The notes below the pieces were generated by a model, which saw only the letters and a program-made list of their open reading frames with translations, had not been told where the DNA came from and made no database searches. 64,000 nucleotides of DNA from Mesaphorura yosii. Its lineage: Eukaryota; Arthropoda; Collembola; Poduromorpha; Tullbergiidae. Location of the stretch: positions 186,001 through 250,000 of the forward strand of contig WIXG01000026.1 in the NCBI GenBank assembly GCA_009869945.1. The letters are read 5' to 3'. The translations under genes and the position numbers were made by a program. How positions within the stretch are numbered: the stretch's first letter is position 1; each line of letters begins with the position of its first letter. Positions 2,838 through 60,100 of this stretch are shown in pieces.

Positions 2838-2957
2838 TTTATTATTTTCAGAAGACATCAAACATCACATGTTCCACTTTTATATTATTTTACAGTTTAT
2901 TGAAAATTTTCATGCAATGCATATACTGAATGGAAGAGAGTATTGCTTGTGAAGCGT

Positions 2958-35464: not shown

Positions 35465-35538
35465 TGTGCGAAATTTAAAAGTGCACGTAACAACGGCCAT
35501 CTTTAATTAAATCAACAATTAAGGGTAGGTTAAGGTCT
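35465..35538 (+). repeat. Left terminal inverted repeat
   Basis: Inverted partner of 35848-35925. It includes the shared core AAAAGTGCACGTAACA followed by the CCATCTTTAATTAAATC block, and lacks one ATTA unit present in the right copy. Confidence 0.85.
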
Positions 35539-35847
35539 GCGCTCGGCCGACAGCTTTTCAGGGAAACTGGTAGGAAGGCGGGGCTCCTTCGAGTGGCCAC
35601 CGCGAAGCCTTGATTTGACTCCGCTGGATGTTTTCCTTTGAGTTGAACTCAAGAACAAAGACCTAACGGTGAAGATTGTCGACGAATGCAAAAAAAAAAT
35701 TACACCGGCTACGGTGGTGGATGTTAGGAAGGAATTTCTTGACAGAATTGGATAATGCATGTTTGCAAAGGGCAAACGCTTTGAGCACTTGATTCGTTCA
35801 AAGTGAAATTAAGCTTAGCTTAGTCAAAAATTAAAAGTGGCTGATAC

Positions 35848-35925
35848 AGACCCTAACCTACCCTTAATTAATTGTTGATTTAATTAAAGATGGCTGCTGT
35901 TACGTGCACTTTTAAATATCGCACA
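35848..35925 (-). repeat. Right terminal inverted repeat
   Basis: Inverted partner of 35465-35538, with a duplicated AATT/ATTA unit and scattered substitutions. Weaker similarity may continue outward past 35925. Confidence 0.85.
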
Positions 35926-38900
35926 CTGTACTTTATATTCTCAATAAATGTTGCGAAACCAAACTTCTTGACTTTGCCCTGCCAAGCATCAACACTACAC
36001 AACTTGTTTCTACCGTCGTTTGTCTTCAGTGTTGTCTCTTTCGCTGCGGTTCTCACATTTTGTATTTATTTCTACCGATAGCTCTTTAACTTTACTCGGT
36101 TCACCTTCAATAGGGCGACTAAGCAACAGCAATACAAATATTCTGGTATTTTGAAAGTTCGTTTTCTCCTTAAAAAGTAAACACAAAATGCAGGCTCCAT
36201 ACAAACTTTATAGAAATATAATAGTTACGGTCCCTTGAGAATCATTCGATTCGCTGAATGTGACTTGTTCGTTCTCCTCAACATAATAAAATATATTCTC
36301 CTCTTTGTATCGCGCTATTTCTCTCATTTGCCATCGTTCCACGCAGTGCACGGATTTCTGGTGACTGCCGAAAGGACTTTGTACACGGAATCCGATGTCC
36401 AGAATCAAATAAAAAGTAATATGATTCGTAAATCCACGATGAATACACCCGATAAATGTGAAAGAAAACCCATATTCCAGGTGCACAGCAAAGCGTGCAG
36501 GCTAGTTATTTGCGCGCTGCCATAAAACAGCGGTCATAAACGCGGATCACCGTAACCCTGCTCTGGTCCAGCCAGACTTCAATTCTGTCGCGTTGGCGGA
36601 TGAAATTGGAGCTTATTTTATAGTTATTAGTCGTTTATCCGAACGATTCTAAAATTCGTACAAGGCGAGCAGAAATCTGGAACTGATACTCACGGCTTAC
36701 TTTCCTGGCTTTGTTGTGTACACAGCAAGCGAAATTTTTCAATGACAATAGAGCGATTTCATCACCAATTCTGTTTAACATCTGCTGCTATTAAACCCAA
36801 TGAGGCAAACGAATGTTCGAGGGAAGACGGCTATTTCTGAATTCAGTACCATGCATTTTAAATCCGGCGAATGTTCCCAACAGATCAACTTACACAACAT
36901 TTTTAATATCCATCAACTACAATATTCCGCAGTGGCGGTTCGATTTCCGTGGAACACTCCATTTAATCTCACTTCGCCGTTGCCCGCAGGGTACGCACGG
37001 TCTGAACCTCGTAAGAAGTAGTAAACCATGTGTGCGTGATCTTTATCCAAATTGATTCAATATTTGCTACATCTTCCTTACTCCAACTTGAGCGTGCTGT
37101 TTATTGCTTCCCCCGATTCCCCGATCGATTATGCCTGTAACTTTGAATTTCAATGTTTCCCGATCTAAAGACCATAAATTCCCTACCAGGAGTATGTTTT
37201 ATAGCAATCATGCATTTTTTCACCCTCGCGCTCAGGCAGAAGGCAGTTCGGGGATACCGGAGATGCAATAATAGTAATGACGTGACATAAATATGAATGA
37301 ATTGCCAGAATTGCATACTTCAGATGCATGTGCTCGTTTTGGTGCTTGAGAATGACCAAAATTGCGTCTCGATGTGCATGAATTTGAGCATGGAATTTCA
37401 TTGAAAATAAATGAGTAACGCAGCGTCCAAAAGTTCTTACACTTGGAAAAGAATGCTAGGAAGAAAGAAAATTAAACTGGTTTAAGCTGCAGCCAGTTAT
37501 AGAGTCCACAAACCAAGAAGCAGAAACGCCATGCATTGGTGGCTTTAGGAAAGAAAGCCTAAAGATTTTGAGAATTTAATGCGCGAAAGCCGAACACTGG
37601 CGCTATGCAGATGACAGTAGACCTGTGTAAAAGGATTTTCTCCTTGCTTGCCTCCATTCTCACCGCTTATAAGTGAGCTTCGAGGATTTTGTGTCTGACT
37701 GGGAACAGCATGAGTGAAATTGTATTAAATGGAAAGTAATGAGATACGGCTACCGCCATGGCAGCAGGAAAGGCAAGACATTCTGTTGACCGAAAATCAT
37801 CCTACCGTACTGAGCAACCACAGCGCGTCGGACAGAAAAACGAGTCCTGTTTTATTCTCTATTCTATTCATGCATGGACTGTGGCAGGTTTACAATACTC
37901 TGTCAAGCTTTGCAGAGACCGTGGTTTACGCGCCACGGATCTATCGCAGTCAATACAGTATCGCAGAGACATGATGCACGTTAAATCCTGTTCAAACGAG
38001 TCTCTAGGTCAAACCGCACTAGCACACATTCCCCATAGATTATTTGTACAAGTTAAGCAAGCTTGTACAGGAAACTGTATGGAAATTCATCCAAAACAGA
38101 ATTGTGAGACAGACAGCGGCAAACTTACGGTGACATAAATGATGGCATCCGTCGAGTAGTCTGGTGGACCAATTTCATGATGTGTGTTGTGATGGTGTTG
38201 ATAATGCCTCGCCATTTCTTGTGCCGATGAGTACTTATATTCAGTAATCAGAGGTCAACGAGTCTGTTGACTACGTGTCCGCTGTGCATGAGTCCTTGAA
38301 ATCACTGCAGCCTTTGGAGAAGTTTGGTCGACTGAGGTTGGATTATGTCGCGTGAGACGGTTCAAGGCCTAATATTCTGCTATCTGTAAAAGGTACAAAG
38401 AGAGCTCTTTTAAACAGTGATCCATCTCCGCTCGGTGTGCTTGAGTGGAGGAGTGAATGAAAATTGAGAAAAGTGCTCGAGACATTGTCGAGTAGATTCT
38501 CCGAATACAAAAGAAAGTGTCTCAACATGAATCGAAAATGTAAAGACGAGTCGGTCGGAAATCCTTCCTGCCTGATTCACTTGCAAAATATTTTGTGCGT
38601 GCAAGTAAACTGAAACTTAAATTGAGTTTTCGTGTCATCATTTTGATCCTTACCTTGCCCTGTGAGCTCGCGCACTGCTCTTCATGCAATATCTCCCTTT
38701 ATTTTTTGAGATATCAAAAAATACATAAAACAAAGGGAATAATCGAAAGAAGGAGTTAAGACAGACAATAATAGAGTTTTTGAAGAAAAGATATATAAAA
38801 TAGATTGAAGTTGAGCACAAAGAGGTAAAGAAGAAAGGGTGTTGTGAAATCAAAACGTGTTTGGATTTCCTACTTTTTATGTCCGTAAAATTCAATACAA

Positions 38901-41900
38901 GAAAATCGTCATCTACTCCATGTACTCATTGAGTCCTTTGTATATAGGCTGCATCGCGATCTGCTTCAGTACTCAGTACTCAGGAACCGAAGATGGTTTT
39001 AAGATGGTAATAATCTTATTACCGTTCTCCTTCCTCTACCAATTTCCCACCAGCACGAAACGATTTCGATTTCGAAGATGCCACTCCATAGACACTCATC
39101 TGACTGAATTGTGTGAATGGATGATGCATTATTGGAACAATCCAAAATGTGCTTGTACTTTCGCAATTCCTTGTGTGTGTGCCATTTCATTTTTTGCGAA
39201 CAGGTTGAGTATGTTTCCACTTTTCTTGATTCAACATAGAAAAATATCGAGCCTCTATTATTTATGTGTTTATTATTGGGTAAAAGCGATGGGCGCAACA
39301 TGACAGTGGGCAGTGACTATTAAACATTGAATTTGGCAAGTAACAAGGCACAGATGAATAAACCCTGACTTGCGCACCCTGCACATTTGAGAATGATATG
39401 AAGCTGGGAATGTGACGCCCATGCTTCCCACATTGACGGACCATTTAGCTTTCATCTGTTGAAATCGAATCTACGCCTCAGACTTGAAATCGGAACCGCA
39501 TCGAGAATATAACCTTGTTTTTCCATGAGGATCAGATCGGTAGGCAACTCGTTATGATAGTTTGTATGAGCATAAGGTTGATGAGTAGATTTCAATAATT
39601 CTCAACTCAAATTCTAGCATGACTTCGAGATTAAGATGTGCTCGTTTAGTCATTATTTTTAATATGAAATTCCCCTCGTAAACCGCTCTCTGTAGAAGTA
39701 CTCGAGTCGAAGATCGAATCGATTTCACGAAGATTTAATAAATTCTCCAATTGTCTGTCGCATATTTCCCCAGAAATATGAACTGCCTGCGTCTTTATCA
39801 ACTTGAGTTTCGGACTCAGAATGCTTTTAACAGCAGTAGTCTGCATCTGACAGAAGACACGCGTATTTATTTTTCCATGCAAATTCTTTAGAATTTTTAA
39901 CTGTACTTGTCCTCCTTTTGTTTCCTTCCTTGCCATCTTCAGGACACACTTTCCGGCCCAACTGCGATAATATTGGACTGAAAAGCTTAATGTTCTCCAT
40001 TCTTATTTGTGTGATGAATTTACATTCATGGAGTGTTTACAATTTCACTACGATATAATGCATGCACATAAGGACAATTTCCTGTTTATGCCTTGGCTTA
40101 GATGCTCGAGGAAATTAAAAGTACGCAGTATGGAGTTTATAATTTTAGTTTTCTCTCAAACGGAAAATTCTTAAAGTATATCCTCTTTGCACGTATCCGT
40201 TGACGTGACTTCGGAACTGTGTGGGATCCATGTTCCTCTCGACCTTTCGCTCGTTCATGATGAACAAGGTTCACTTTTCCGACTTTCGTTCTGTTTTCTG
40301 CATTTCTATCGTTTGCACCTGACCGTTTCACTTTCATCATTAAAAACTTATAGAAATCTGAAATGATCCTTTCAATTGCTGCATGAAAAGACTCTTACAT
40401 GAATATCTTTTTGTACTGAACGTTGCTCCGCTTACCTGGAATGAGAAAGTTAAGTCCACAATTTGCAGGTACTTCAATGTAGAACTTGATAAAGTTTGTG
40501 TCTTGCTGAATTTTGAATCTTCGATCTCACACGAGTTGCAAGTCTCCCGTACCCCGCTCGTAAGTGGACAATTTCCAATAACATAAAACACTTATTATGT
40601 GGATTATACTCCTCTGTTTGTATGGTCCCGTCCTGTTACAGCGGAATACTTCTGCTTTTTCTCCAGCTCAAGAGACTGCATTCAGAACTTCTTAAATGTG
40701 TTAAAGTAATGACTTTTAATCTTCTCGCACGCGTCCTGTCTCGAGTCGTTCGAGTGTATTGCGTGAAGGTAATATCAGGAATGAGAATTGAAAGAGGAAC
40801 TGAAAGCGGAGACGGAAACTGGTTCACATGTAAATGTGCTTCACAAACCCGATTTTAAAGAGAAAAGTCACTCTAGGAACGCGAAGCTTCAACGATGTCC
40901 CTCGTTGCGCGGCTGGTGTTGGAAGAAGACTATACTGCTTCGACGTCAGACGGCCACATTTTGTATGATTCTCAACTCACTTTCACAGTTCTTTCTTGTA
41001 TTTGGGCTCCTTTCATTTGTGCAACCATTCTGTGAGTTCACGACTTTCCCACTACGAGAGTAGCGAATATCGTCTCACGCGATCGTACTGGACTACACTG
41101 TCGAAGAGAAAGCAGGGGAAAGGTATTTCCCCATCAAGCACGAATTATACGGCAGTGTTTTGAATTTGAATGATGTACTCGTATCCGTTGTGCTATAAAG
41201 GGACATGAAGAAGAGCACACTAGCCGGCCCATTTGCCTTTCACAAGTTAAACTCCGTGATGGTAAATCGGTATTTGTGTTACAAAAGCCATGGCTTTTTA
41301 AATCCATTAAATCATGACTCGGATTTTTTATTTATTTCTCCGTGTTTCCAACCAATCAAATTGAGAGTGAAATCTGTGACCAACCATCCACTTAAAAGTG
41401 CAAAGTCAACTCATTAATTAGAGCTCTCAACGGCAAATTTAACATGGCCATCAGACAGTAATTACTAGTATGAAATGCTGAAATACCGGTCACACACAAA
41501 CACACTGAATCGCCTGCTGGTTGCTTCATAGAGAAGTTGAGACAGATTGCGTCTTGAGCTTGAAACCAATTTGTCTCATGTTTGAGAGTGGAATTCAATT
41601 TCGAGAGGATAGATCCAATTATTAACTAGGAGACAGAGAGTGCCCGCAATCATTGAACACGTATAGCACTCGTGAGTTCAATCCCGACTTCCGAGCAGTG
41701 TGTATACGTCAAATTGCGCCTCCAAGTGTAAGATGTAATCTTGACACTTAATTCCTCATGCACGTGGAAAGCAGAGTACAGGTTCAGACACATTCGAACC
41801 CTGCGATTTTCGTACGTGGATGTGAAATGTGCGGCTGCAGTAAAGCAATCTTCACTCTGCAACCTTAACTGCAGAAAGTATGGAGTACGAAATCTGATTA

Positions 41901-43229
41901 AAACAGATTGAATTCTGCAGGATTCATGGTTGTAATAAAAATAGTATTAGATCTTTCGGGAGACACTAATTCTCATTTTAAGAGAGCAATAACGGGATGT
42001 CAGAAGAAATTATGAAAAATGTACGCCCAAGGCCCGACCACATTACGAATTTCAGTCTTGGCCCCAGGTCTTGGCTATGCATGCGAGAAACCATCTTTTA
42101 GTTTGCCTAATTACTTTTCTGTGACTTGAATCTCTAATTTGACTGAGATTTATTGCACAAGTCGCAGAATTTTTTATGAATGCTGAGCTAAGTTTTACTG
42201 TGTTCTTTGAAACTTGGAAGAGCTTTCTCTTCTTAATTACGGTGGGTTACAGATTATGAATCTCACCTCCGATGGAGAATAATCTTCCGAATTTAACAGC
42301 GATTATTTTGAATTTTTATTCAGATTTCATTTTACGCAATCCGGTGTTTCGAGCGGACGATAAAAGGTGCGTTCGGTGTTTAAAATTTGAAATTGAGAAG
42401 CAATATTTTCCCTTCTTCCAATGAATGTTATATGAAACTTCCTCTTTGGTCGCTTCGGTCAAGAGAAAAAGCAACACAAGAAAGTGCTCAAAATGAAGAG
42501 TCTGCAAACGGTCGACATTGAGTGAAAGCAAAGGAAATCACCAGCCAAGCAGGAAATCAAATAAGAAAGTGAGAGAATGGAGGCTCGAGTTAATGAGTAT
42601 TTGCTGCAAGAAAACAGGAGCGGAAATATACAGCGGAAGCAATATCTCTGCTCCAAAAGAAAACGGCCTTTCTTCGATCATTGGTTTCACACACAGGAGA
42701 ATGAAGCCTCCTTTGATGTCTAATAATATTTATTGCTCTTCCTTCATCGTTTATGTGGAAGGAAAAACGATCTAATATGATTTATTAGAGCTTGAGTTTT
42801 GTACCTTCTCCAGCCAACTTCCGCAGGACATCAATATCAGAATCTGTCCAATTAAGGTTACAGGAGCAGGTCATCCCAAAATTAACGTCTCTAGTTTGCA
42901 CTGGCTGTAATTGCTTTCAAAATGATGCATCCTACAATCCATCTGAGGTCATTTGCTTTTAGGATCACATAGTCGTCCACCTACTCGTTCAATTAAAACC
43001 AATTCCTTCGCGACCCAAAGAATCGAAAATGAGCAATAAACACGCATCATGATGATACGGTTTCCGATACCATCCTCATTTCAGGAGCAGTGAAAGAATT
43101 CAAAAGTTTTCAATACTTTGTATAACCAATCTGAAAAACTACAGATGCAAAGATGCCATTCATGAAGTAGAACCGGCCGCAATTAAGTCAACTGAGAAAA
43201 GCATATACTAGTACGGTGTTACCAAGAAA
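35926..43229. other. Gene desert downstream of EEA1
   Basis: More than 7 kb with no recognised gene on either strand. The longest frames (37758-38138 plus, 38857-39303 plus, 43384-43695 plus) have no motif or are shadows of EEA1. It could hold regulatory DNA or decayed repeats that I cannot identify without comparison. Confidence 0.3.
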
Positions 43230-43235
43230 TTTATT
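43230..43235 (-). terminator. EEA1 polyadenylation signal
   Basis: Reverse-strand AATAAA about 145 bases beyond the EEA1 stop codon. Sequence match only. Confidence 0.5.
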
Positions 43236-43378
43236 TGAAACTTAAACAAAGAACCATAAAAGTACACTGTTTCATTTTTTCTCGGAATTCTGACAAATTA
43301 CGCATAAAAAACATCAATACATGTTGCTTGAACAAATAGTGGTATCGATTAACCTATGGTGGATATGATATGACGTTT

Positions 43379-46300
43379 TCATTTTGGCATTAATTCTTCG
43401 AAGCAAGCATCACAGACGCGAACAGGGTTCTTGCTGCTCGGAATCTTCGCAGTTTTTGCAGAACAATCTTTGCAAAATATTTGCCCACAATGCTGAAAAT
43501 AGAGAATCGTTCCTTCGAATAGCGAATCAACATTCCACAATGAACTTTACTCACACGACAGTGATGTTTCCGGTTTGTAAGCGTGAATTCCCTTTCGCAT
43601 GTTGTGCATATGGTCACCAAAGCGTCGTCCGCCCACTGACGTCCATTCAGCTTGGCGCTTTCCATTACCTGAACCGAACAAATAGAATTAGCTAGTCTTC
43701 CATTCATACCCTGTCATATCGAGGAAGATTATTTGATATGAAATACCAAATTCTGGTTTTCCCTTCCCAACTCCTGCAAAGCCGCATTTGAATCCTCCCT
43801 GATGGAGCAATGTAATTACGTGAGCTTAATAATTAATAATACATAATCACTTTAAAAAGTGTGGCAACAAGGTTTCTTACAGTTTGCGTTTCAGTTCGCT
43901 CATAGCGTCGTGTAATTTCTCCTTCTCATTTGCATCTGCGAGACAACGCTCCATCAGTACGGCGTATTTATGCTCGTTTTGCTTCACGTTCTTCTCGTAT
44001 TCTAAAACGCAAAAGTAATCGTTTGATAACATAAACGAAACGAGGGTTGTGAGGACCACTGCTGATGGCGGTCCAATGACAAACAACTTTACCTAACTTT
44101 TCCACCAGAACTGAGTCCAGCTGACTTTGTAAACGACCGAGCTTACTCGTGGATTCAGCCATTTCGGCCTTAATGTGATTAATGTTCCGCTCTTTTTCTT
44201 CGACTTCAGATTGGAAGGATTTTTCTTTGGCTGTCAACGCTTCGATATGCTTTCTAAGTTCCTTCTGTAATTTCAATTAAAGCAAATTAATAACGTAGTT
44301 TGAGAAACTCTTTTTCCGAAAACGAGCGCGCAAAATCTCATACCTGAACGATTTCGGTGGATTTTGCAGTCTCCTCTTTTTCTTTTTGAATTATTTCTAA
44401 TTCATGCACAGCTTGACGAAGGTCTGCTTTCAGGTTTCCAATCTGACATTCATAACTAATTTTTTCCTCCTCATGCTTTTCACCATATTCATGAATTTTC
44501 TGATTGACGTCTTCAATTGTAGTTATTAACTTGATCTTCTCCTTTTCTATAGCTTCAACTTTTATTGATAGGTCATTTAAACGATCTTTCAGTGAGGTTG
44601 CTTCGTTCAAAGCTTCTTGCTTCTCTTTTTGACAGGCCAAAAGCTGAGACTCTGACTCTTCCTTAAACTGGTGTAAATTGGCTGAGAATTCCGCTCTAAT
44701 TTCCTCAATTTCTTTGCAGACTTTACTCTTTTCCAGATTTGCCAACTTAAGTGAATTCTGAAGTTCAGATATCATGCTTTGGGAATTCTTCAACTCCTCA
44801 GCTTGTTTCTCTACTTCGGACTGAAGGTTAGTGTTGACGGCCACTAATTCCGCTGCACTCCGCTCCTGCAGAAGGATAGGTTAAGGTTTTACAATCTAAT
44901 TACTTCAAAAGCTAAACGACTGAATCAGACCAAACTAAACATACCATGTCCTTGATGGTTGCGCCGTAATTATCCGATAATTCCTGTATGGAGTTAGACA
45001 GCCTGGAGGTTTCTTGCTCGAACTTTTCCAATCTGTCCCTGTTTTCTTTAGCTAATTCTTTTGTATTTTCGTCCTAAACAAATAAAACTGGTACTTTAAT
45101 AATAGCTGTGCAATTTTAAAATCTTTATGTATTTATACCTTCTCTTTGACTTGCAGCTGCAACCTTTCTATTTGTTCTGCTTGAGTACTGGCTTCAGCTA
45201 CCAGTCGTGCAACTTCCGTGGTAGATTGAGACAATTCCAATTTCAAATTGTGTAAATTCTTATTCAGGTCACCGATTTGTACGTCGTCTGATTGTTTTTG
45301 CATTTTCATATTATTACACAGAATGTCCAGCTCTTCTTTCGCTGACTCAGCTTCAGTTAATTGCTTCTGAAGTTGTTGAATATTGTTCATACATTGTTCT
45401 ATCTTAATGTTAGCTTGCGTCTAGAAAATATAGTATCAGAATAAATTAAAAGGTAGACATCCAACAAACTGGTGAATTTTCGACTTACTTCCAGAATTTC
45501 GGTTGGGTTCTGCTCCTTCAACTTCTCGCAGAAACTTAACTGAGCATCAGCGAAAGCTTGTTCCCTTTCATGCGCCATTTTGTTCATATCAGTAATTTCC
45601 TGCTTCAGGTTTTGGATTTCTTCTTCTTTCTGAAGACTGACCTCGTCCATCATTTTCTGTACCGTCACGAGTTCTTGCTTTAACACCTCTGCGTCGTCAA
45701 GACTGTTCCTAAAAAAGAAATCTCAAACCTTATCCATGAGGCTGCTGTGATGTTAAGCTGCTATTATCATTCAGGACAGCCATGACTATGAGCAACGACA
45801 CGTTGGCGTTCAAGTTTAAGGGATCAACTGTACCTGTGGGCTAGTTGCACTTTTAATGAACTGTTTTCTTGTTTGATTTTGTCAACGTCACCGGTTAAGT
45901 TTACGACCGTTTGCTCATTGTCTTTTCTCAGTTGTGATATTTGCTCTATCCTTTCTCCTAGCTGCTGCCTTAGTAGAGTTACATCAGAGGTTACTGCAAT
46001 TATTTTATATTTCCACTTAGGCATAGGTAATCGGTAATCGAAATCAATCTAGATTGTACGCTTACGTAACGCGTTGGCGGCTTGTAGCTCTTTCTCCGAA
46101 TTTCTCACTAATCTGAGCTCATCGCATTGTAACTTCAATTGAATTTGAGATTGGTCATACTGCTTGAGTACCTCCTTTGAGTAATCTTTTTGTTTCTGTT
46201 GAGTAGAAATTGGATATTTTACAATTAAAACAAACATACGACCGGTTTCAGTGCAGCACAGCTCAAGTTTAAGTCTACTGTTGTGACTTACTTGCAAAGA

Positions 46301-46694
46301 AGCTTGTAAATTTTCAATCTCCAACTGCATATTTCTGATATCTTCGCCAATTTCAGAAAGATTGTCACTGCGATCATCGCTGTTGCTGTTGGCTTCCGGT
46401 GGGTCGCTGTGAAGTGTTTCATAGTGAACCTTCAAGGCGTCCGGAGACGAAAATGCCGTCATACACAATGGGCACAGAAATCCTTCAGCGGAATGCTGAT
46501 CTTCGTCATGCTGATGGGACGGCGACGACTCATCGGCATTGCTGCCTTCATTACTATTCTGTAGAATCAATTAACCATAACATCACGTCAGCCGGAGTAG
46601 CACAACTGGAAAAAAATAGATACAAGAAAGAAGGGTGGCAATGTAAAGCACAACTTACAGTAACACGGTTGATCAAATTCTTAATGTTGAACAT
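43379..46694 (-). CDS. EEA1: EEA1-like early endosome tether (C2H2 finger, coiled coil, FYVE)
   Basis: Thirteen exons splice in phase to about 772 residues: 46694-46659, 46558-46292, 46195-46066, 45993-45834, 45708-45489, 45420-45139, 45073-44945, 44865-44344, 44264-44093, 44001-43881, 43798-43747, 43668-43555 and 43492-43379. EEA1 tethers early endosomes by binding Rab5-GTP and PI3P. The N-terminal C2H2 finger uses Cys41, Cys44, His57 and His62 (EGFLCPLCMTAFSSPDALK, then HYETLH). Almost the whole middle is heptad-rich coiled coil, including SDVTLLRQQLGERIEQI. Just before the FYVE domain is LQELGRENQNL, as in human EEA1. The FYVE domain (about 709-768) has WADD, the PI3P-binding RKHHCRHCG, eight zinc-ligand cysteines and RVCDAC. 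The rod is about half the human length (1411 residues). Confidence 0.95.
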
Positions 46695-49020
46695 CACTGA
46701 TTGGAAGCAAAGCTGTACTCGATCAGTCTATCAGGCCAGGCACTAGAATTCCTGCAACATAAAAGATAAGTACAGGAGGTATCCATAAAATACGCAGCTA
46801 AACACTTACACTGATTTGCCTCAAGGCGTACTTAATTGTATTTCACCAGTTGCATTATAATAATTTACAGCTAAATTGCACTACTTGATACTACCCGATT
46901 GCCGAAGTGGTCGAAGGAAGAAACTCCAAACAGATCAACTGCTAAGATTCTAATATAAAATATGCACTTACTCGAGTTTCTACTTTAATGAGTTACTGAT
47001 GCACCTCAATTAATAATTTTAAATCCGAAAGTGGGAGGTCCTTCTTGTGAAAGAATGCAAAACTCGCGTTTCCAAGTCAGAAATTAAAAGCAGTTCGCAC
47101 TTCGTGGCTTAATTTGTAAGCTCTGCAACGAATTTAATGACAGATGATAAAAAATACAAACATCGTGTTGCTTGTGTATACGCGTGCGACTTTGCCTTGC
47201 TATTATACTACTGCATAACGATGCGATCATATGGAACATCAAGAGATTACAGTACAGCGGTTCCATATCCTTTCGCAGAATCCAAGAAGCTGTTGTAGGA
47301 TTTGTTGGGTGCTTTGTTCGATGGTCTCTACCACTATGTTTCACGATATCGTGATTGAAACGTGCAAGACTGAGGACGTGTGGTACATGTAATGAATGAA
47401 CCCTAATTAATTACTTTAGTTTAATGTGTTGTGCAAAGTCTGTTACTAGCACAAGTAGTAAAGCACAAATACATTGATGGGTTCAGACATGAGGCAACCG
47501 ACCAAGCACGCACTTCTGTGAGGAGTATCACCCATCGGCGTCAACTTGAAGACAGCCGCATGTAGACCTCAAGGCACTGGGCGTCCAGCATTTGAAGCTG
47601 CAATAATTACAACAACAATCAGATCAGCCAGAAACTAATGACTTCATCTGGTGAGATATTTTCCAAAAATTAAACAAACCTGGCTCAACTTGTCCTCTCG
47701 ATCGCTTGGTGAACTGGCCGTTAGTTTGGCTAAAAGTTTCTTTCCACTTCCATCTTTCTTAATGTCCACCTTTTTCCAGTATTAATTTTAGTACAATTAT
47801 TCGGCTCCTCGGCATGATGTCATTACGCTTGAGGAAAATTCGAATGCGATAAATGTGGAGCACAGGCGTCCTGCAGATGTGGAATGTGCAGAACCCGTAA
47901 ATGCCATATGAGAAAACCGAAAATCAGCCCAAGATGATGACGATAATTTAAGAGAATACAATTTGGAAAGAGTGAAGGGTTTATTATGCATGGTAAAAAT
48001 GACGACATGATTATAAGTTTGCTATGAGTAGAGGTTCACGCCAAGCGCGCACATTGAGATGGGAACATACTGGCAGCAGGAATCCGGCTGTATGTGGGCT
48101 CGGAACGATTCTTTTCATGGCGTGCCAACTACCAGGAGTCAGTATTGTCTTAATTAGTCGGATTTGGTCCAAGGCTGAGCTTCATTCTCGCTGCTCTAAA
48201 TCCCAAGGCACATGTTTCTGCTCATCTGTTCATTTCATCCATCATTATCCACAGAAATGACGATGATTGGCATAAAAGCCTTCTCTGTTTCTGCATTCCC
48301 TTGCACGTAGGTGAATTGTGCGCAAAGGTAAACATGAAACTTAAGAAAATAACGCTAAAATGCCGCTTCTTGCATGCCATGTCAAATATACAGAAATGGA
48401 AATGGGAATTCGGTCCGGGTGAACTTCTTTAAAAAGTGGGGTTTTGCATCTGTGAATGATATCGCTATAAGATTTGGGTGAAGTTCTTGAGTAACGCCAT
48501 GACGCTGTGACCTGGTGGCGTTGGTGCAATATCTGTTTCCTACCAAGCGTGGCTTCGGATGCGATGATACAATGTTTCGTGTTTCGAACCAGAGCGTTAG
48601 GGGCGTCCCCGATATACCCATAGTCATTTCCATGATGCGTGTAGTTTTCGGCTAAGAATTTGTGTTTATGTTTAAGAACCTGGAAATGAACGAGTCTTGC
48701 TATTTTTAAAACAAAAGGATTTAAACCGTGGATTCTAACATTAAACTCACACTTGCTAGTGCAAAGTTACATAATTTTTGAATCACTCGTAGAGCCAGCC
48801 GAGGACTTGTGCCTCCGCTTCCGTTTTCTCCCTTCTTGTCTGTGTTTGGAACTTGGCTGGTGTGCACCGTCTCACTTTCAACTCCGGCTTTTCTTGCCAT
48901 TTTTAATATCACGTACTGGTACGTTTGCTACTAAACCAAATTATTATTGGTTTGTTCTAGTATTGCAGATTTTAACGCGATTTTTCTGATCTGAATACGC
49001 AGGAGCCTTAATCAGCAGTA
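46695..49020. other. Divergent upstream region of EEA1 and troponin T
   Basis: About 2.3 kb between the minus-strand EEA1 start and the plus-strand troponin T start; it should hold both promoters and any untranslated first exons. A possible acceptor (TACGCAG) at about 49000 just before the troponin T ATG suggests an upstream noncoding exon. I could not place it or name muscle control sites. Confidence 0.4.
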
Positions 49021-52000
49021 ATGTCAGACGAGGAGGAATACTCGTAAGTTTTCGACAATATTTTGTACCCTTCTAGCTAGACGACAGTATAAATAGTCTA
49101 AAATGGCGATAACGGGTTTAGTCTCTTCCAAAATTAGTCTATTAGTCAGTTGCACCATTGCACAATAATGCCTTCCATTGGATTAATTGTGGTAGTATAA
49201 TGAAATTTTGGGCTTCGGAATTTGGAAGTGCTCAGGCTAAAAGTACGGCTGCCTTTTTCAATTCACCGCATCATTTAAACCCAACTTGAAGCATGCCAAA
49301 TTGCCATTGCACAATACAGGATGTTTCACGTTTGAAGCGGCAGACTCGCCAGGAATACAATGTCGCAAATGAGACTTGCATGACTGTTTCGGCTTTTGGC
49401 AAGTTTCCAATTAGCAAGATTAATTTTAGCACGGGTTGTTTTCTCATGCCTCCTGCCTTCAAAAAACTGTGCTCGCACTTCAAAAGGTCTGATCTGGAAT
49501 CAGATCAAATGAATAGATATCTTTCTGAAAAATCTCCGCGCTGAGGAATGTCAGGTTTTGAGAACAGTAAACGCAAAGGTGGGCAACAAAACATCGCGCA
49601 GCTAGAATATGTCCTCGTGATGAATGATGTTTTTTTGACGTGGCGTCGTTAGTGCAGGCTGCTAGTACACTCAAATACTGCCAATGACTCATCTAGGCGC
49701 ATAACTTCCTTAGCATTGTCTGAACACCTTGAAGGTTCGAGTAATTATATCGACGTCGTTAGTGACCGTCTCGCTTTACTTGGCTAACAAAGAAAGGGTA
49801 AATGAAAGCAGAATGCGGCTGTCATAGGTGAACTCTTTGTCCCAAACCTAATGACTCAAACCTTGTATCCTTTTCAGTGAGGAGGAGGAGGTCGAGGAAG
49901 TGTAAGCAATATCGCCTTTTTCAATGCGCAGAAGATGAATTTACCTTCAATTTGATTGTTGCCTTTATGATATCCCTAACTTTTCGCCATGATGCTGAAA
50001 TTGTACACGAACTTTGAATTGCAATCAATTCAGTAAGAAGCCAGCAGCGGCACCTCCACCACCAGTGTAAGCCATCATCCTTGGTTATGTGTGACTCCAC
50101 CCTGTAGTGTATTTCATGCATTTTTCTGCTTGTAGGGAGGAAAATGCGGGCAAGGCTGAGTTCATTAAGGTTTGTACAACCGTTTCTAAGAAAATTGGGA
50201 TATTCGTTAATTGTATCGCCTCCTTGCTTGACATCTTTCAGAGGCAAGAGGAAAAGAAGTCGGATTTGGATGAACAATTGAAGGAGTACATTCTTGAGTG
50301 GAGAAAACAACGTGCCAAGGAGGAAGATGAACTCCGCAAGCTTAAAGACCACCAAGCAAAGCGAAAGGTCTTACCCCGTTTACGCTGAGCTCCGTTACCA
50401 TTCAGATCCCACTCTGAGCTTACAATTATGACCCTTATTACAGACACTTCGAGAACAAGAAGAGAAGCGCTTGGCTGAGAAGAAACGTCAAGAAGAAGAG
50501 CGCTTAAAACGCGAGGCCGAGGAAAAGAAGCAGCGTGAGCAGGAGGAGAAACTTCGCCGGCTGGAGGAAATTGAACGAAGAAAGCAATTGATGATGCAGG
50601 CCCAGAAGGTGATTTAAACTATTCCCAATTCTGTCACGGAGTCGTACGACTGCATTCATAAAATTTTAGGCCAGCTTGGCTGGAAAATTTCTTCTGAACA
50701 AGAAGCCTGGCGAAGACGTAAGTGTAAGACAACTGTTCACTATTTTGTCATGATGTGCGAAGAATGTAAAACTGCAAATTGAACAGATGAGCGGACAAAG
50801 CTCAGCAAGACAGGAGCTGAACAAGACCAAGGAGCAACTTGAGGAAGAGAAGAAGATTTCCATGAGTTTTCGCATCAAGCCGCTGGATATCTCTGGATTG
50901 TCAGCCGATGTATTGAAGAAGAAGGCTCAAGAACTGTGGGAACAAATTATTCGGCTTGAAACCGAGAAGTACGATTTGGAGGAACGTCAAAAGCGTCAAG
51001 ACTACGATGTAAGCACTCCGTTAGAAGTATTCATAATGAGAATAAACGTTCACGTAAAAATAATGCGAGTCCACAAATGAAAGCACGGGTTTTAGCCGAG
51101 TCATGCTAAATCAATTTGTGACTTGTGCCGGCACAAGTTCTGGTCGCGCATTCAGGTAGTTGGTCGCATTGTATTGGGTGTAAATAATTTAACATTATTT
51201 CTCTCTGTCATGTGAATAGCTGAAAGAGTTGCGAGAACGTCAAAAGCAACAGTTGCGGCACAAAGCCTTAAAGAAGGGTCTTGACCCAGAGTAAGTTGTA
51301 CAACAAAGTGAAGTGAATTAACAAGTCATTCGTGAAATGAGTCGACATTTTTATACTTCACGAGACTGATTTCACATTTTTCGACTTGCCAGTGTTTAAA
51401 TTTTTAATTACACGTAGCCCACGAGCTTTCTGTGATTTGCTCTTACGTTTTCAATTGCCGATCAATTGAACCCGAATTGCAAGAGTTCAATGCTGCCATA
51501 AATCACCGGTGTACATATTTTAAGCAACAACATCCTGCAAAATTCAACCAAACTGAAAGCTTTTAATTGACGTACGAAACGAAATTTACGTGCGTGGTTT
51601 CGAAGCGCAATTCCAACTTGAACCCAGAGAAGCAATCAATGCGCAAACAATGGCTCACTTGTCACACACACAAGCCTCGAATTTTACTTTTCCTTCCCAG
51701 ATTTGGTCACTTTTTGATTTTGTACCACCAAAACTTTTGTTATGAATCCTTCCAGTTGAAGGAATTAAAGGAACGACAGAAGCAACAGTTGCGACACAAG
51801 GCCTTGAAACGAGGTCTTGACCCAGAGTAAGTCTCGCATGGAGTTCCACCAAAATATGCACTCACGTTTATTTTCTGCCCCTGGCGCCCGCAAGTACTTG
51901 CCCTTATGACCCCAGCCTGTCTGCACCCTTGCACTCAAGTCACCAACTTCCATTTTAATTACGCCTGCCATTGAGTGAAACCACGTATAATTAACCATTG

Positions 52001-53557
52001 AGCTCTGCTTTGCCTGAAGTTGAAAGATGATAATGATTGAAACTTGTATTCCCTCGAATGCACTTCACCTGCGTTTTTGCAAAACCACGGAATGCAGTAC
52101 AGATTCTATGTGGGAGTGTGTTGGATTGCCGTGCCCGCTTACGGATATATTCTGAGATTTTTTTTTATTGATGCCGTCAGTGTACCTTACGTTTGTTCAC
52201 TTTAATGATCTTCTAATTTGAGTTTTTTTTTCTCTCAAGGGCCTTGACTGGCAAATATCCTGTAAGTACTAAGCAACGACTTCAGATCAGTCATAGCCAT
52301 CTCAATCTGAGACTAATTAATTGTACGAAATTCCATTTCAGCCGAAAATCCAGGTCGCCTCCAAGTACGAACGGCGAATGGACACCCGGTCATACGATGA
52401 CAAGAAGAAACTGTTTGAAGGAGTACGTAATCTTGCAATTTTTTGCTGTAGAAATTAATTGATCGAGACACAGACCCTTTTCACTTTGATTATTTCGATG
52501 AGAGTCTGATACGCGTTTCATGTGTCGACTCAGGGTTGGGACGTAATTAACCAGGAAATTAATGAGAAATTCTGGAAAGAGAACGTCGACGTGTTCACGA
52601 AAAGACAAAAGAGTAAGCATAACGGTCAATGCTAACTTGCTCTGAGTAATCAGTTAGTCACGAGTTGAGTTTTATTGCGGTGACATCGATAACTTTATCA
52701 ATTTGCATAGTAGGCTTCTTCATTATGACTCAACATTTCGCCCTAGAAAAAAGCTAACGCTAGAAGTCTAGAATATGTCTTTCAGCTGAGTACTTCGAAT
52801 TTTTAACTTTTAATGGGCTAGACTGCTACTTAGTTTAAAGATGTATTTTTGAATAGATGACCAGTTTCGCACATTAGTGAATCCTGGGGCAAGGCTTCAT
52901 AGGATTTCACTTGACATGTACTAGCCGAGTCTTGCAGTGCCGCTGACATGCTTTCGTTAACACTCTGTTAATACTGAAGGGTTTGGAAACACTTAACAAA
53001 GATGTTATGGAAAAGCAGTGGTCAGAAACCATAAAAGCATTTGAACAACGCCAAAAGAGTAAGAATTTTTGAGAAATATTATGCATCCCTTTCGTACTCG
53101 TATTCCCGTTGCCTGTCATCGTACTTCAAAAACCACACCGTTTCCTCAATCCACGTACCAGAAGCAGACGTTGAAACTGGGTTTCACATAGCATGATTCC
53201 TCTCGAAATGCCTGAATTGAGAGTGAACTAATTTTTTCTTTATACTGAACTTTTGATTTATATCTGTTTTTGCTTTCACTAGACGTTCGTTGATAGAATG
53301 CTTGACTACCTGACACTAATTACATGTTTTTGTATCAAACGTAGCCAAGCTTCCCAAATGGTTCGGTGAACGACCCGGCAAGAAGAAGGGGGACCCCGAG
53401 ACTCCTGATGAGGAACCCGCAAACGTGAGTCTATTCTTCCTTTGCATTTGAACGCCGAATTAACGTACGTATTCATTCATAGGAGCCACCAATTCCTGAT
53501 GTCTTGGACGAACCAAACTTCGACGAGGAACCCGAACCAGAACCCGAAGCCGAGGAG

Positions 53558-53598
<41 letters not shown>

Positions 53599-53626
53599 GG
53601 AAGAAGAAGAGGAGGAAGAAGAATAA
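49021..53626 (+). CDS. TnT: Troponin T with two mutually exclusive exon pairs
   Basis: Exons: 49021-49043, 49878-49901, 50034-50066, 50136-50169, 50242-50367, 50444-50608, 50670-50717, 50787-51008, then 51220-51290 or 51756-51826, 52240-52261, 52342-52422, 52534-52612 or 52980-53058, 53345-53424 and 53483-53626. One of each pair gives about 383 residues. Troponin T anchors the troponin complex to tropomyosin on thin filaments. The N-terminus is MSDEEEYSEEEEVEEVKKP, encoded by tiny exons. The helical core has RQEEKKSDLDEQLKEYILEW, TKEQLEEEKKISMSFRIKP, LETEKYDLEERQKRQDYD, ALTGKYPPKIQVASKYERR and KLPKWFGERPGKKKGDPE. The C-terminus ends in 24 consecutive glutamates, a trait of arthropod troponin T. 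AATAAA at 53681-53686 is the likely poly(A) signal. Confidence 0.97.
51220..51290 (+). other. TnT: Troponin T alternative exon A of the upstream pair
   Basis: 71-base exon encoding LKELRERQKQQLRHKALK, then KGLDPE, with acceptor TGAATAG and donor GTAAGT. It differs from its partner at 51756-51826 in two residues (Arg/Lys swaps). It belongs to the tropomyosin-binding helix. Confidence 0.9.
51756..51826 (+). other. TnT: Troponin T alternative exon B of the upstream pair
   Basis: 71-base exon encoding LKELKERQKQQLRHKALK, then RGLDPE, with acceptor TTCCAG and donor GTAAGT. Same phase and length as 51220-51290. Including both or neither would break the frame. Confidence 0.9.
52534..52612 (+). other. 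TnT: Troponin T alternative exon A of the downstream pair
   Basis: 79-base exon encoding GWDVINQEINEKFWKEN, then VDVFTKRQK. It occupies the place of the insect exon 10a/10b pair. Confidence 0.9.
52980..53058 (+). other. TnT: Troponin T alternative exon B of the downstream pair
   Basis: 79-base exon encoding GLETLNKDVMEKQWSET, then IKAFEQRQK. About 10 of 26 residues match its partner at 52534-52612, with the same phase and length. The acceptor (ACTGAAG) is weaker than that of exon A, which would suit regulated use. Confidence 0.88.
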
Positions 53627-53680
53627 ACATTTTAACAATTGTAATAATTACCTTTTCTTTGGAGTGTGTAAAGCTGTCGT

Positions 53681-53686
53681 AATAAA
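53681..53686 (+). terminator. Troponin T polyadenylation signal
   Basis: AATAAA 55 bases after the troponin T stop codon. Sequence match only. Confidence 0.55.
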
Positions 53687-53689
53687 CTG

Positions 53690-56600
53690 GAACTCCAATT
53701 ACAGCTATAAATTTGCGCTCCCAAATTGCCGTGCTCATTGCGTGTCCCTCGTTTTGTAATGACAGGGCAACGCACACGAAATGTTGTCCATCGACTACTT
53801 CGACCTGGTGGCATTTGAACTTTCTGTACCACACTAGTATGTGTAAATTCGCATGCGAACACAAGCAGGAGAAAAATACCACGAGCACCGCAACAAGTGG
53901 AATGGATTTTTACAGACCGACTAATTTTGCCGCATCAATAATTCGGCTCTCACTTCAAATTAGTACGGACTTTCTCTCGGACATTAACTTGGCTCACATG
54001 CACTGCGAGTGCCACTCAGAGGGCATACAATTTCTTTCGGTAGAATTAACATTTGGGAAAGAGAGACAAGCCTTATAGTTGGCGCCCGACACAATAGACA
54101 GTTTCGTGTAAATTGCGGGCGCATGTTTGTCACGCAGCACATATTTCACTACTGAATTTTCTTGATGCAAATGAAAGACTAGCTAAAGACGGAGCCAAGC
54201 GCTGCTGGGTTACGCTCAGAACCGTATCATAGCACACAAAGTTCCCCAGCATCTTTCTAGTTGCTCGATCGGAGTGAAACTTCGTCGAGTTCAGCAATCT
54301 ATATAAAAGAAAAATCTGAACAAACGTGTGCTAGTGTTGTGTTGACAGTTCCGGTGTTTGTTTCTCAGATTTCTCACCTCGTGGCTTGATTGAGCTAAAT
54401 CCGTGTTTCGGTCACCTATTGAGATAATTGTTTGAGTCGAATAGACGAATTCATACAGCACCGCGTCAGGGTGAGTCTCCTCTTCATTTCTACAAATCAT
54501 TTCGCGTCAAAACCCGTTTCAGAAGTGAAAAAAATACGTAAATCCAAAGGTAAGTTGCGACTAGTTGCGCCCATCTATAAAACGCAATTCTCTAAGATTC
54601 TAGGTACAAATACAGGGCATCCTACTTAATCGTACATTTTAGCTATGCACCAGTTGGGCATCTTTCCGTTTACAGTCGTAGCAGTAATTACTGCAAAAAT
54701 GGCGATACTCGTCCGAGAATTTTCATTTCCGCTCGTCGCCATCCGCGCGTTTGTGCCTCGGAGCTGTACTATTGCTCCCACCAAAGCAAAGACTAACATT
54801 TACATCCGTGATTCAGATATTTGCTCCATTTTACTGCAACTTTAGCCAACCATGTCGTGAAGTGCGTTCTAGTGAAAATACTTTGCTTGATAAATACCGC
54901 TCCGGGCACCTTAACTCTTCTCAGAGAGGTTCGATTCCCTTCTGCGAAAAGAAATGCGATTACGACTGACTTTCCCAGGCCAATTTTCCTGTCACTGTGC
55001 CGCTTGATGTCCCAATACTTGAAAAAAAAATCTCGTGAAAGTACCTAAATATACTGAAAGCGCATGTGTGTATTCGAATGCTTTACTTTGCGGTACAATT
55101 GATTCTACGAATTTTACGATTGAACTCTCAGTTCATATACATAATTGTGTTGCAGCGAAACTCACAGGGTATACACTGAGATCGAGTGAGATCATGTAAT
55201 GATAGACTACCCGAAACTCACCGTTGGATTTGGTTTTGATCCCGTTTGGATTGATTTTGACACTGTGCCAGTGTGCAAAGGTCATAAATGTAATTAACTA
55301 CTACTGGAATTGTGTAATGGTTAATCATTTATTAACCACAACACTCTATATTGCAAAATTTGAGTCAACGTCGCACGTTGTTTAGAAATTGACGTACACC
55401 TACTTGCATTTCACGGGCCGCATAGGCAGTATAGTGTCTCGAATATGATACCTGTATTAATCATCTATCTCATGTAATACGAATAACATGGGGAATGAGA
55501 AAGTCTCTTATTTCAGATAACGAGAAAAAATAAAAACCAATTTAAAGATACACACAACCGCCCGATACAAACATCAACGTTCACAATTCGCAATGCGTTG
55601 CAACGGAATAAGTGCGTTCTCTAACTTGAGGAAAATAATCTTTATGTCATCTTTGTGTGAAGATCTTATTTACTTAAACATCAGAAGAAACGAAAGACGA
55701 AAGGAACTCTCTTCTTCTCTCGACATGCGAGCAGTTGGTGCTTCTTTGCTTGCCGTCTTCTTCTGGCTTGACTTCATGCACATAGTGAGCTAATTACTGC
55801 AGAGCATTTTGTAATTGCGTACTCAGAAACGATGCAAATCTTTTATCCGCTGATTAAAATAGCGTTTCAACTTGAACACAACTTGAATGCTCTAAAAATG
55901 GCTTCCGATGAGTATCTCAGGTGGGAATACCTTTCGAAAGAGTATGCGACATATCCCTGCTTCTGTAACGACAGTAATAAATGTGTTACATGATTGCACA
56001 ACGAAGCAACGCATGACATTTGGAATATCTGCAAAGGTGAAATGCCGTGAAGATTGCAGTCTCTCTTCATTTGCAGAAATTTCACTTATTGTCGATTTTA
56101 TTGGAGTGCCTGCATTCATCGGCTTAATTTGCGATCGCAAAATGTCATTACCTGACTTTCGCTACACAATGGCACGTATATAGGAGATTCGTTAAAAAAT
56201 TTCTCCACATTAATCTACGAGACAAGCGTGTTACCTCGCACAATAAGAGCTCGTTCCACTGTTCCTACCGCCTCGTTTGCGAAATGGCGAACTGCGAGTT
56301 CTGATGAAATTGGAATAATACCGTAGAATATGTTGAATTTTTCACAGCCTTCCCAAGTTCACCAAGATGTCAATGTTGGTGAGGAAAGGAACTATGCTTC
56401 ATCGTAACCCGTCCAGGCGCTCATCAAGAGGCCGGAGGTCTTCGAGGTAAAGCCAGCATCACTGAGAACCAAAACATAAATTGCATAGTTCAAGGGCATG
56501 AGGGCCGAGGATTCTTGAATTCCTGAACTTCCGAATATAATGGAATAGGTTCGGTACAAGAAATTGGATTGGCTTGCGGTCTCAAGTCACCAGGATGCCT

Positions 56601-56737
56601 ACGAAACCTGCAAGAAGAGCACGGGTCCCGAAATTAGAATAACATGTAAATAGCAGGAGTTTGAGGTTTCCCAAAGTCACCCGTAAGATGAGAGAAAATA
56701 AACTTCTTGAGACGAACGAGATCGAATTCAGCGTTCA
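53690..56737. other. Intergenic region after troponin T
   Basis: About 3 kb with no recognised gene. A T-arm-like GGTTCGATTCCC at about 54927-54938 lacks a matching A box and stems. I see nothing else that I can support. Confidence 0.3.
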
Positions 56738-56743
56738 TTTATT
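56738..56743 (-). terminator. Polyadenylation signal for the minus-strand gene ending at 56854
   Basis: Reverse-strand AATAAA about 110 bases beyond the stop codon of the exon at 57108-56854. It supports that exon being a true 3' end. Confidence 0.4.
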
Positions 56744-56853
56744 ATTATTAAAGTTTGGCGGTTAAGTGTAATTTCTAAAGAATGTAATCAATACGATACA
56801 ATTTCCATCAAAGTCCCAAAGCACGACGGGCGGCTACGTTTGACACTCTCCGG

Positions 56854-57108
56854 TCACGTATTGAGTATCATTGCGGCCCTAACACGAGGCGGCATGTCAT
56901 TCAAGTCGTTGTGCAGTTGTCCGATGCTATTAGCACTAACAAATTGTCTTATTTGTAGAGGATCAATTTCTGGTAGCAGCAGTGTCCGAAGGAAAGTGGG
57001 AACGGAGGCCCATAACGGGGCGGCTACGGTTGACTCTTCTGGCTCCTCTGCTGGTGCTTCAGGCTCTGCATATGCGAGGTCTTTTGGTGGCGGTGGCAAT
57101 GGCTTAGC
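56854..57108 (-). CDS. Terminal exon of an uncharacterised Pro/Glu-rich protein
   Basis: The exon follows a good polypyrimidine tract and acceptor (TTTTTTATCTGCTAAG) and runs to a TGA, with a poly(A) signal beyond. It reads PLPPPPKDLAYAEPEAPAEE, then the hydrophobic PTFLRTLLLPEIDPLQIRQF, then DMPPRVRAAMILNT. The family is unknown. Upstream exons would lie at higher coordinates on the minus strand but none was identified. The plus-strand frame over the same bases is Gly/Ser-rich and looks like a shadow, at least up to about 57110. Confidence 0.4.
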   Translation of the reverse strand, partial: AKPLPPPPKDLAYAEPEAPAEEPEESTVAAPLWASVPTFLRTLLLPEIDPLQIRQFVSANSIGQLHNDLNDMPPRVRAAMILNT

Positions 57109-57110
57109 AG

Positions 57111-60100
57111 ATAAAAAAGACAGAGATCACGCAGGGAGTAGAAGTCCCTCCGGACTGCGAAGAAAGTCAACGTCTGAACCTTATTCCGTTGAAATTGAAC
57201 CACCAAGAGAAGGTAAGTAGACGGCGCGATGCAATTTCGGCCACGCGTTGACATTGGGTTTTGTAATAAACTGCAAAGATAAAAGAGTCGTATGTGGTCA
57301 TTAATGCTCCTGTGTATAGTTTATGGACAACAAAAAGTGACGTTTCGTGCACGACTTGCAATTTTCCCGACTTGCTTAACATTCTATGAAACAGAATACT
57401 GTGCAAGCGGAGTAAAACTTAGCCGGGACATGTCGACTGCTCTATATTAAATCGGGATTACCAATTTGCGATAAGAGTTTAAGACTACACTGCAGAAAGT
57501 TGAGCTTTTCTCCTCACCAGACCATGAGAGTGGACACACGGCATGTTTCTCTGTTTGGTGTTATTTAATGAAGTTATGTGTTGTGCCCACATCTATTACG
57601 ATAATAACAACGAGATATGCATGTGTCTCGTACAGCTGGAATCTCTTCTGCTTTTCTTTACATTCAATTAATGCCAAGCTGCGATGCGCAAAAGCTCTGC
57701 CTTGGAAGAAAGCCTGTTTTCCGCATAGCCACATGTGCTGCTTGGGCATCAGTACAGCTTTTTAATTCTATCAAGCGTGAAAATAATGAAATTCGAATTC
57801 GAATGAATGAGGCACAGCACAGTACAACGTTGAAGGCCGCTTGTTGCTCCTTGTAATTACCAAATAATTTCTCACAGTGTTCGTGTTTCATAAACCCTTT
57901 CTAGGCTCGGAGATATTCGGCAATGCATGAATCATTGCTGCAGTTGTTTCCCAATGAGTAGGTACTCAATTAGTCCTGTGAAGTGTCACCTTCGCTCTCT
58001 GCATCAAACGAGTTTCAAAACAAAACAAAGGGATTGCGAAATGCAAATTAGGCGAAATAAATTGATTCATTTTCCTTTCTCCTTTCGGTCGTGGCGCTAG
58101 CTGTCACCACGGACAGATAGCGGAAAAAATTGTAAACAGTAAAAAGAAAGACGCCATGGCCAATCTCGGATGTACAAGTTAGCCAACCCGAGAATCGTAG
58201 CCACACCTTGTCGTTTTAATTGTCACTCTTTCCAAAATGCATCAGAAATAACATTGGCAACATTCTAACAATCTGTCTCAATGTCAGACAGGTCGTGTCA
58301 TTCAGAATAATGTGACCATTAAATCTTGCTGACGTCCATCCCCAAAAATCTTCGTGCCGGATCGGAGTGAGAACAAATGGGGAGATTCAGCATGAACTAT
58401 GAGCATTTTTAAATGCACCACTCATAAAGTGTAACCTTGCGTCTGTCTCTGCTATAAAACTCCTTTGTATGTTGGTTTTATTAATGAAACCATAATTTTG
58501 TTGGGCATCACCTTCTCCTTTCATCGCTTCCAAAGCATACACCCAAAACGCTCTGAATGAGTGATGCATTCATAACACCAGTATGAAATTAGAATTTGCA
58601 GACTCTGATTTTGACACTCAACATGAGTGCGACTCCCGAATATTCTTACCATAAAACGAAATCCTTGCGTCTCATGGGCAATAAAAGATGTTTGTCATGA
58701 TCATAAACTTAGCGAATACTAAACACGTGAAAGTACAAAATGGAATATGAACGTGAATTTGATGGACAGGCGTCATCAGAAGATTGTAATTTGACACGGC
58801 CGACCGCTTTGTCCTTCAGACCTTTCTTCATCCACCCCTTTAACAAACACGACTCCAAAATATCACCCTAATTTTAGTTGGTCAAGGTCATTGTGAAACT
58901 GCAAGCAGGCACCGACCAGAGAAAGTACAAAATTTGACGCGGTTTCTTTTTTAATGCACAAGAAGATGAGACATAAAATGATGCATTCAGATCCAAGGGT
59001 AAACGGAAACATACTCGCGGTGCCAGATTTATAGCTCTGATGTCTTCCTGAAAGAAAAAATTTTCGGGCATTCGAGTTACGAGTAATTTTTATTCATAAT
59101 GACATGTTTTTGGTATTTTAATGGAAAGGACGACAACCATAATTATATTGTGCCTGGATAAGGACATGGTTCCTGAACAAGAGACGTAACTAATTGAAGC
59201 AATTTGTGTTTCATTCAAAAACATCATTAAACATTGTTTCGCTAGACACTCTTTTCAAGTCCAGTTAAGAAGTTTACCATGAGAAAACAGCCAGATATAA
59301 TAATTTCATTCTTAAGCATAAAAATATGCCAAGAATTTAATAAGATTTAATTTTGGCATCTTATCGATGCAAACGTCAGCCTGGAAAAACACAGGCTACC
59401 AGGGAAGATCCTGTCGGTGCTTATTAGAACAGAAATGCCATACAAATACTTCTGAAAGCTGGTCAGCCCTCGCGCCGGGATACACACCGTCTCATATTCT
59501 TGCGTAGAACAAATCAACTCGCGGTTCTGTTGCAATTCTTTCATAAAAAGCTCAACTTCCTGCTTTTGCTCATGTTCCAACCCGCTTCTCGCATACAGAT
59601 ATGAATGTCAGAGTTGGATGAGGATTTAGAGTCTTGTGTGTAAAGTTTTTCAAAATACTGCGTAGTACACGAGTTATGCGAGAAAAACGTGCGTTTCAAG
59701 AAAGGTATGCTCTGTATTTGAAGCAAGTCACGAAATCATGCCCTGGCTGCATGGGTTGTTTTCTAATGATATAAGGGCCGATCGAGAACAAGAAATAGAA
59801 AGGTGCCCGTTTGAACTTTAGCCACACCGTGGACGTGGGCATGTTGGCCGGACAAAAGCTCTCCCACCTGAGAAGGAAGTAGTGAGCAATACGTATAATT
59901 TCGTTCCTCTATAATTTGTTCCATTTTGTACCACTTGAGAACTCGCACTTCGTGTATCCACACGGGACTCAAACATACAATTTGCTACGAACTCAGAGCT
60001 AATAAGTTGTTTCTTCATGTCGTGTCGCTCTGTGCTAACAAAGGTCTTGAAAAGCTTCGGCCGGTGATAGAACACGCGCCTCACGCATCAGTGTGATGAA

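Follow-up and report, generated by a model that had tools for sequence, protein, structure and literature searches.

Two tandem exon duplications in a troponin T gene of the springtail Mesaphorura yosii, which has two such genes

We analysed a window of 64,000 nucleotides from the genome of Mesaphorura yosii (assembly GCA_009869945.1, contig WIXG01000026.1, positions 186,001 to 250,000); coordinates are positions within this window unless another contig is named. The coding frame of a troponin T gene (TnT-1) occupies 49021-53626 on the forward strand and is distributed over 16 coding exons, including two alternative pairs, upstream (P1) and downstream (P2). The constitutive 5' coding part (49021..51008), recognized by its splice sites, open frame and Troponin match, consists of eight exons at 49021-49043, 49878-49901, 50034-50066, 50136-50169, 50242-50367, 50444-50608, 50670-50717 and 50787-51008. 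P1 follows, then two exons that separate it from P2 (52240-52261 and 52342-52422, placed by splice sites and frame), then P2 itself, and finally the last two coding exons (53345-53424 and 53483-53626), which encode a Glu-rich tail and the stop. Any of the four P1/P2 pairings yields one frame of 1152 nt with the stop, encoding 383 amino acids, and in all four the C-terminus is a long Glu run.

A preliminary description of the locus had assigned the gene to troponin T, and this assignment was borne out by a Pfam Troponin match to residues 156-231 and by the alignment of residues about 155-241 to vertebrate TnT chains. The alignment to the fast-TnT chain 1ytz_T has one gap, a single residue close to where the match begins, and none around residue 226, the first residue of P1; the alignment to 8fmn_B has no gap at all. 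The surroundings yielded no Rfam match at 40000-60000, and there is no tRNA in the whole window. The upstream neighbor, on the reverse strand (45133-46570), is a gene for a coiled-coil protein; a single C2H2-like finger lies close to its beginning, and by eye the gene resembles early endosome antigen EEA1.

The two copies of P1 are 71 nt each, P1a at 51220..51290 (LKELRERQKQQLRHKALKKGLDPE) and P1b at 51756..51826 (LKELKERQKQQLRHKALKRGLDPE), both on the forward strand; they are separated by an intron of 465 nt (51291..51755), begin in phase 0 and end after 2 nt of a codon. Those of P2, on the same strand, are 79 nt each, P2a at 52534..52612 (GWDVINQEINEKFWKENVDVFTKRQK) and P2b at 52980..53058 (GLETLNKDVMEKQWSETIKAFEQRQK), with an intron of 367 nt between them (52613..52979), and they begin in phase 0 and end after 1 nt. 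The coordinates, lengths and phases first reported for both pairs proved exact to the base, and GT-AG sites are present; every copy has an AG acceptor and a GTAAG donor. Published prediction of mutually exclusive exons is described as relying on similar length, splice sites, frame and homology (PMC3228551), and both P1 and P2 agree in length and phase, have compatible splice sites and are homologous. Among the nine exons tested in 48001-54500 no further duplicated exon was seen; what matches there were, with the Glu tail or with other exons for charged coiled coil, we attribute to composition.

P1a and P1b are far more alike in protein than in DNA. They are identical at 55 of 71 nt and specify the same amino acid in 21 of 23 whole codons (22 of 24 counting the split codon), so that the 24-residue peptides differ only by two reciprocal swaps, R becoming K at one position and K becoming R at the other. 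Over the 23 codons there are 10 synonymous and 2 replacement differences. The NG86 method gave a dN of 0.058 with a dS that is saturated and therefore not computable, and YN00, in a run that gave numerical warnings, returned a less extreme dN/dS of 0.15/0.45. When 16 substitutions were placed uniformly at random in the exon, two or fewer amino-acid changes arose in none of 20,000 simulations (mean 10.6). Outside the exons the likeness largely disappears: the flanks, compared without gaps over 60 nt on each side, are identical at 40 of 120 positions, and the local alignment score of the introns preceding P1a and P1b was reached by 19 of 100 shuffles. Because synonymous sites are heavily changed and the flanks are only a third identical, both copies look old and constrained, each apparently selected for the same peptide. 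A recent duplication or an assembly artefact was ruled out by the same two features. In a test for gene conversion between the copies, identical codons were not clustered beyond expectation (P = 0.46). A repeat finder reported the upstream pair only (80% over 79 nt including edges), and a genome-wide search with the P1 exon peptide returned three places only among the best candidates scored.

The P2 copies have diverged much further, with 46 of 79 nt and 10 of 26 amino acids identical and a local BLOSUM62 score of 64. Their mutual match in the genome-wide search (38% identity, E 1.4-1.6) is weak, and they are absent from the output of the repeat finder, a tool for which they are too diverged; among the best candidates scored, a genome-wide search with the P2 exon peptide found four places only. 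The homology of P2a and P2b rests on length, phase, splice sites and protein similarity, and chiefly on a matching pair in a second TnT gene, because of which we regard it as secure. In TnT-1 the P2 site lies between KKLFEG and KLPKWFGERPGKK, ahead of the Glu-rich tail, and the choice between these strongly diverged 26-residue segments is predicted to make a real difference to the protein.

Searching the complete genome for Troponin returned eight matches on three contigs, namely that of TnT-1 and two others (C12 and C230). On C230 (region 27500-36000, reverse strand 3561-5758) is the second TnT gene, TnT-2, which has the same exon plan as TnT-1 and was modeled from exon e5 to the stop. It has both P2-type exons and a single P1-type exon, with flanking introns of 76 and 68 nt, so that within this genome's two TnT genes the P1-type pair is seen in TnT-1 only. 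Two introns of TnT-2, after exons e5 and e7, are apparently of the GC-AG type. That TnT-2 is an alternative haplotype was ruled out by its own gene structure and by identities of 62 of 74 and 42 of 55 amino acids in the two longest exons compared. One exon used as a query found no TnT relatives in viral contigs. Searches bearing on the affinity of the genome gave no COX1 match and no insect odorant-receptor match, the latter in a search that stayed silent in its control as well. For arginine kinase the two highest-scoring entries are long chains, each matched over two stretches; among chains matched over one stretch the best scores (437-427 bits) belong to entries presumably from shrimp, crab and crayfish, against about 400 for Limulus and 389 for entries presumably from Daphnia, and a crustacean affinity would seem likely on these scores.

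Between the two genes the P2a copies are identical at 18 of 26 residues and the P2b copies likewise at 18 of 26, whereas the four a-b comparisons over both genes give 10, 12, 10 and 15 of 26. Since the a copies and the b copies pair up across the genes, the P2 pair predates the TnT gene duplication. For P1, third-position differences amount to 11 of 23 between P1a and P1b and to 10 of 23 between each copy and the TnT-2 exon, which makes the three about equidistant. Both K/R states of the single TnT-2 exon are those of P1b, and because of this sharing there is a weak hint that the P1 duplication may have come first and that TnT-2 later lost a copy. On C12 (region 174000-183999, reverse strand 2000-4266) lies a gene for troponin I (TnI), the partner of TnT, in which an exon of 101 nt is present as four tandem copies; two were found at 101 nt by script and two came to 101 nt after their acceptors were reassigned by eye. 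Insect and other arthropod troponin I genes have an exon 6 cluster of tandem alternative copies, which the TnI gene of this genome resembles; unlike the TnT pairs, such a cluster belongs to another gene and here comprises four copies.

Wrong use of either pair breaks the reading frame in every case, as the preliminary description had held, and with P1 the consequence is an early stop, which in the 6 combinations with both copies or neither lies 102-408 nt ahead of the last junction. Including both P2 copies gives a stop 142 nt before that junction. Omitting both P2 copies also shifts the frame but brings no early stop; the poly-Glu tail (exon 53483-53626) is read instead in an open, Lys/Arg-rich frame that runs on into the 3' UTR and terminates 277 nt downstream of the last junction. 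The further argument that only one copy of each pair is usable thus does not follow for this double skip. Four mRNAs are indeed possible, as had been proposed under the name of four C-terminal isoforms, but the proteins differ appreciably by the P2 choice only. The mRNAs with both or neither P1 copy, or with both P2 copies, would be expected to decay; in some animals nonsense-mediated decay is less tied to junction distance. Given the early stops from these three kinds of error, the frame would help to enforce exclusivity.

These stops also suit a different view of P1, as a dosage device: its choice would barely alter the protein, while the frame-broken mRNAs with both or neither copy would decay and so tune the amount of TnT-1 in each muscle. 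That 24 residues differ by two K/R swaps only, despite heavily changed synonymous sites, fits such a role, as does the single P1-type copy of the other TnT gene. In human duplicated-exon pairs, however, substitutions are described as mostly conservative as well (PMC9741552), so near-identity is by itself no argument for a regulatory role, and we judge the dosage reading unlikely, while giving it some weight.

The splice sites of the four copies are mostly ordinary or strong. Among 26 donors theirs score 11.5, 11.5, 11.4 and 9.1 (joint first, joint third and eleventh), and their acceptors score 0.7, 4.1, 2.1 and 6.8, where the 27 acceptors scored span -6.7 to 10.1; the scores are leave-one-out, with the reservation that paired copies train on each other. 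The acceptor of P1a (0.7) is the weakest of the four and the third weakest of the 27, as might be expected if one P1 copy were a decaying duplicate, never or rarely spliced in. We consider this very improbable: drift in both copies has been mostly synonymous and their donors are intact, though the flanks have fallen to a third identity.

Introns of 465 and 367 nt between the copies are in our judgment too long for steric exclusion, and both copies could be spliced in. Duplexes between introns were evaluated in nine comparisons, none of which went beyond z = -1.54 (3 of 60 shuffles), folding of long duplexes being a weak test without relatives, and the 465-nt intron between P1a and P1b has no partner clearly beyond chance. 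Exclusion by competing RNA structures with docking and selector sites is known for several genes (PMC6071210), and the pairing of the intron before P2a with the intron after P2b is mildly favorable in both TnT genes (z -1.38, 6 of 60 shuffles; z -1.34, 7 of 60). Against this stand the nine duplex results and the comparison of the three P2-flanking introns between TnT-1 and TnT-2, part of 11 local intron comparisons in all: one of the three matched weakly (2 of 100 shuffles), and no match was seen for the others (94 and 79 of 100). An RNA-structural mechanism seems quite unlikely to us. As the duplex results show no clear signal, the introns are long and the splice sites mostly ordinary or strong, the mechanism of exclusion is not visible in the TnT-1 sequence.

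The reading that we favor, with good though not full confidence, is that TnT-1 is one of two TnT genes and has undergone tandem exon duplication twice, independently, with one copy of each pair most likely spliced in at a time, P2 being an old switch and P1 near-synonymous. Each transcript would contain one copy of each pair, and its regulation and use by muscle type are presumed as well. P2a and P2b would form an old C-terminal switch, common to both TnT genes and placed like insect 10A/10B; swapping strongly diverged 26 residues just before the Glu-rich tail, it would be the choice that matters for function. P1a and P1b would lie where the TnI-pairing helix comes to its C-terminal end, apparently at the place of tetrapod exons 16/17 and probably with a separate origin, and selection would hold them almost identical in protein. 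Because they are so nearly identical, the choice of P1 should alter TnT little beyond the two K/R swaps. Products with both or neither P1 copy, or with both P2 copies, would meet an early stop and be removed by nonsense-mediated decay, and the exclusion itself would probably be carried out by trans-acting splicing factors. Several points count against this favored reading: the introns between the copies leave room for both to be spliced in, no competing duplex stands out, the double P2 skip meets no early stop, the P1a acceptor is weak, the YN00 ratio for P1 is less extreme, and with near-identical P1 proteins there is no obvious reason to retain both copies. Compared with the preliminary description, it keeps the pairs, their coordinates and the identification as TnT; what had been missed is that P1 is near-synonymous, that there is a second TnT gene with the P2 pair only and that P1 apparently lies at the tetrapod 16/17 position, and one argument from the frame had been put too strongly.

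Exons 16 and 17 of tetrapod fast TnT (TNNT3) begin, as we take it, right after KYD/KYE, a point that aligns with the start of P1 at residue 226. P1 thus apparently starts at the same place in the TnI-pairing helix, with DYD before the boundary and L after it here, and KYD and I at what we presume to be the vertebrate boundary. Neither exon length is divisible by three (71 nt in P1, presumably 41 nt in the vertebrate exons). The tetrapod copies are more divergent from each other and end earlier than those of P1. Exons 16/17 are described as mutually exclusive and are placed in the part of TnT with which TnI and TnC interact (PMC8559874); the choice between them reportedly influences affinity toward TnI and tropomyosin forms (PMC9153194). 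A 2007 paper describes this alternative as exclusive to terrestrial vertebrates (PMC1919359), for which reason P1 looks like a parallel duplication; because of this exclusivity, as described there, and of the single copy in TnT-2, common ancestry is disfavored. P1 and exons 16/17 are probably parallel, independent duplications. In the voltage-gated calcium channels of human and fly, ten independent exon duplications are reported, all on different exons (PMC9741552). A fuller proposal has one internal TnT exon duplicated and turned into an alternative on two separate occasions, in an arthropod and in tetrapods, with the arthropod P1 kept near-identical in protein because it provides splicing-level control of TnT-1 output and not a protein switch, beside a true switch at P2; this is a speculation to which we assign a low probability. 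If the same exon has been hit in both groups, this would single out a site in the TnI-pairing helix at which minor changes are both tolerated and useful. TnT-1 with both pairs and its sister TnT-2 with only the P2 pair offer a natural comparison.

The choice between exons 10A and 10B of insect TnT (Drosophila upheld) presumably sits at the place of P2, before KLPKWFGERPGKK and the Glu-rich tail. Taking the Drosophila site to be so, the position first proposed for the downstream pair agrees with its place after the conserved TnT core and ahead of the final exons, which carry the Glu-rich tail, and P2 probably shares with 10A/10B the choice of one of two. The Drosophila exons are described as mutually exclusive and muscle-type-specific (PMC13322953). 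This genome differs in having a second pair upstream of P2 and two TnT genes, whereas one TnT gene is described for insects, of which 15 were examined (PMC11942869). Among the literature matches listed there is no mention of an upstream duplicated exon, in line with the impression that one is not familiar from well-studied insects, nor did we find among them a report of a second TnT exon pair in any arthropod. TnT isoforms are on record in another arthropod, the tarantula, as TNNT1_As and TNNT2_As, two cDNAs that differ by nine substitutions, with the sequence of one of the two cDNAs restricted to the C-terminal 157 amino acids (PMC2674065). Set beside these systems, the arrangement of TnT-1 is ordinary in kind and unusual in combination.
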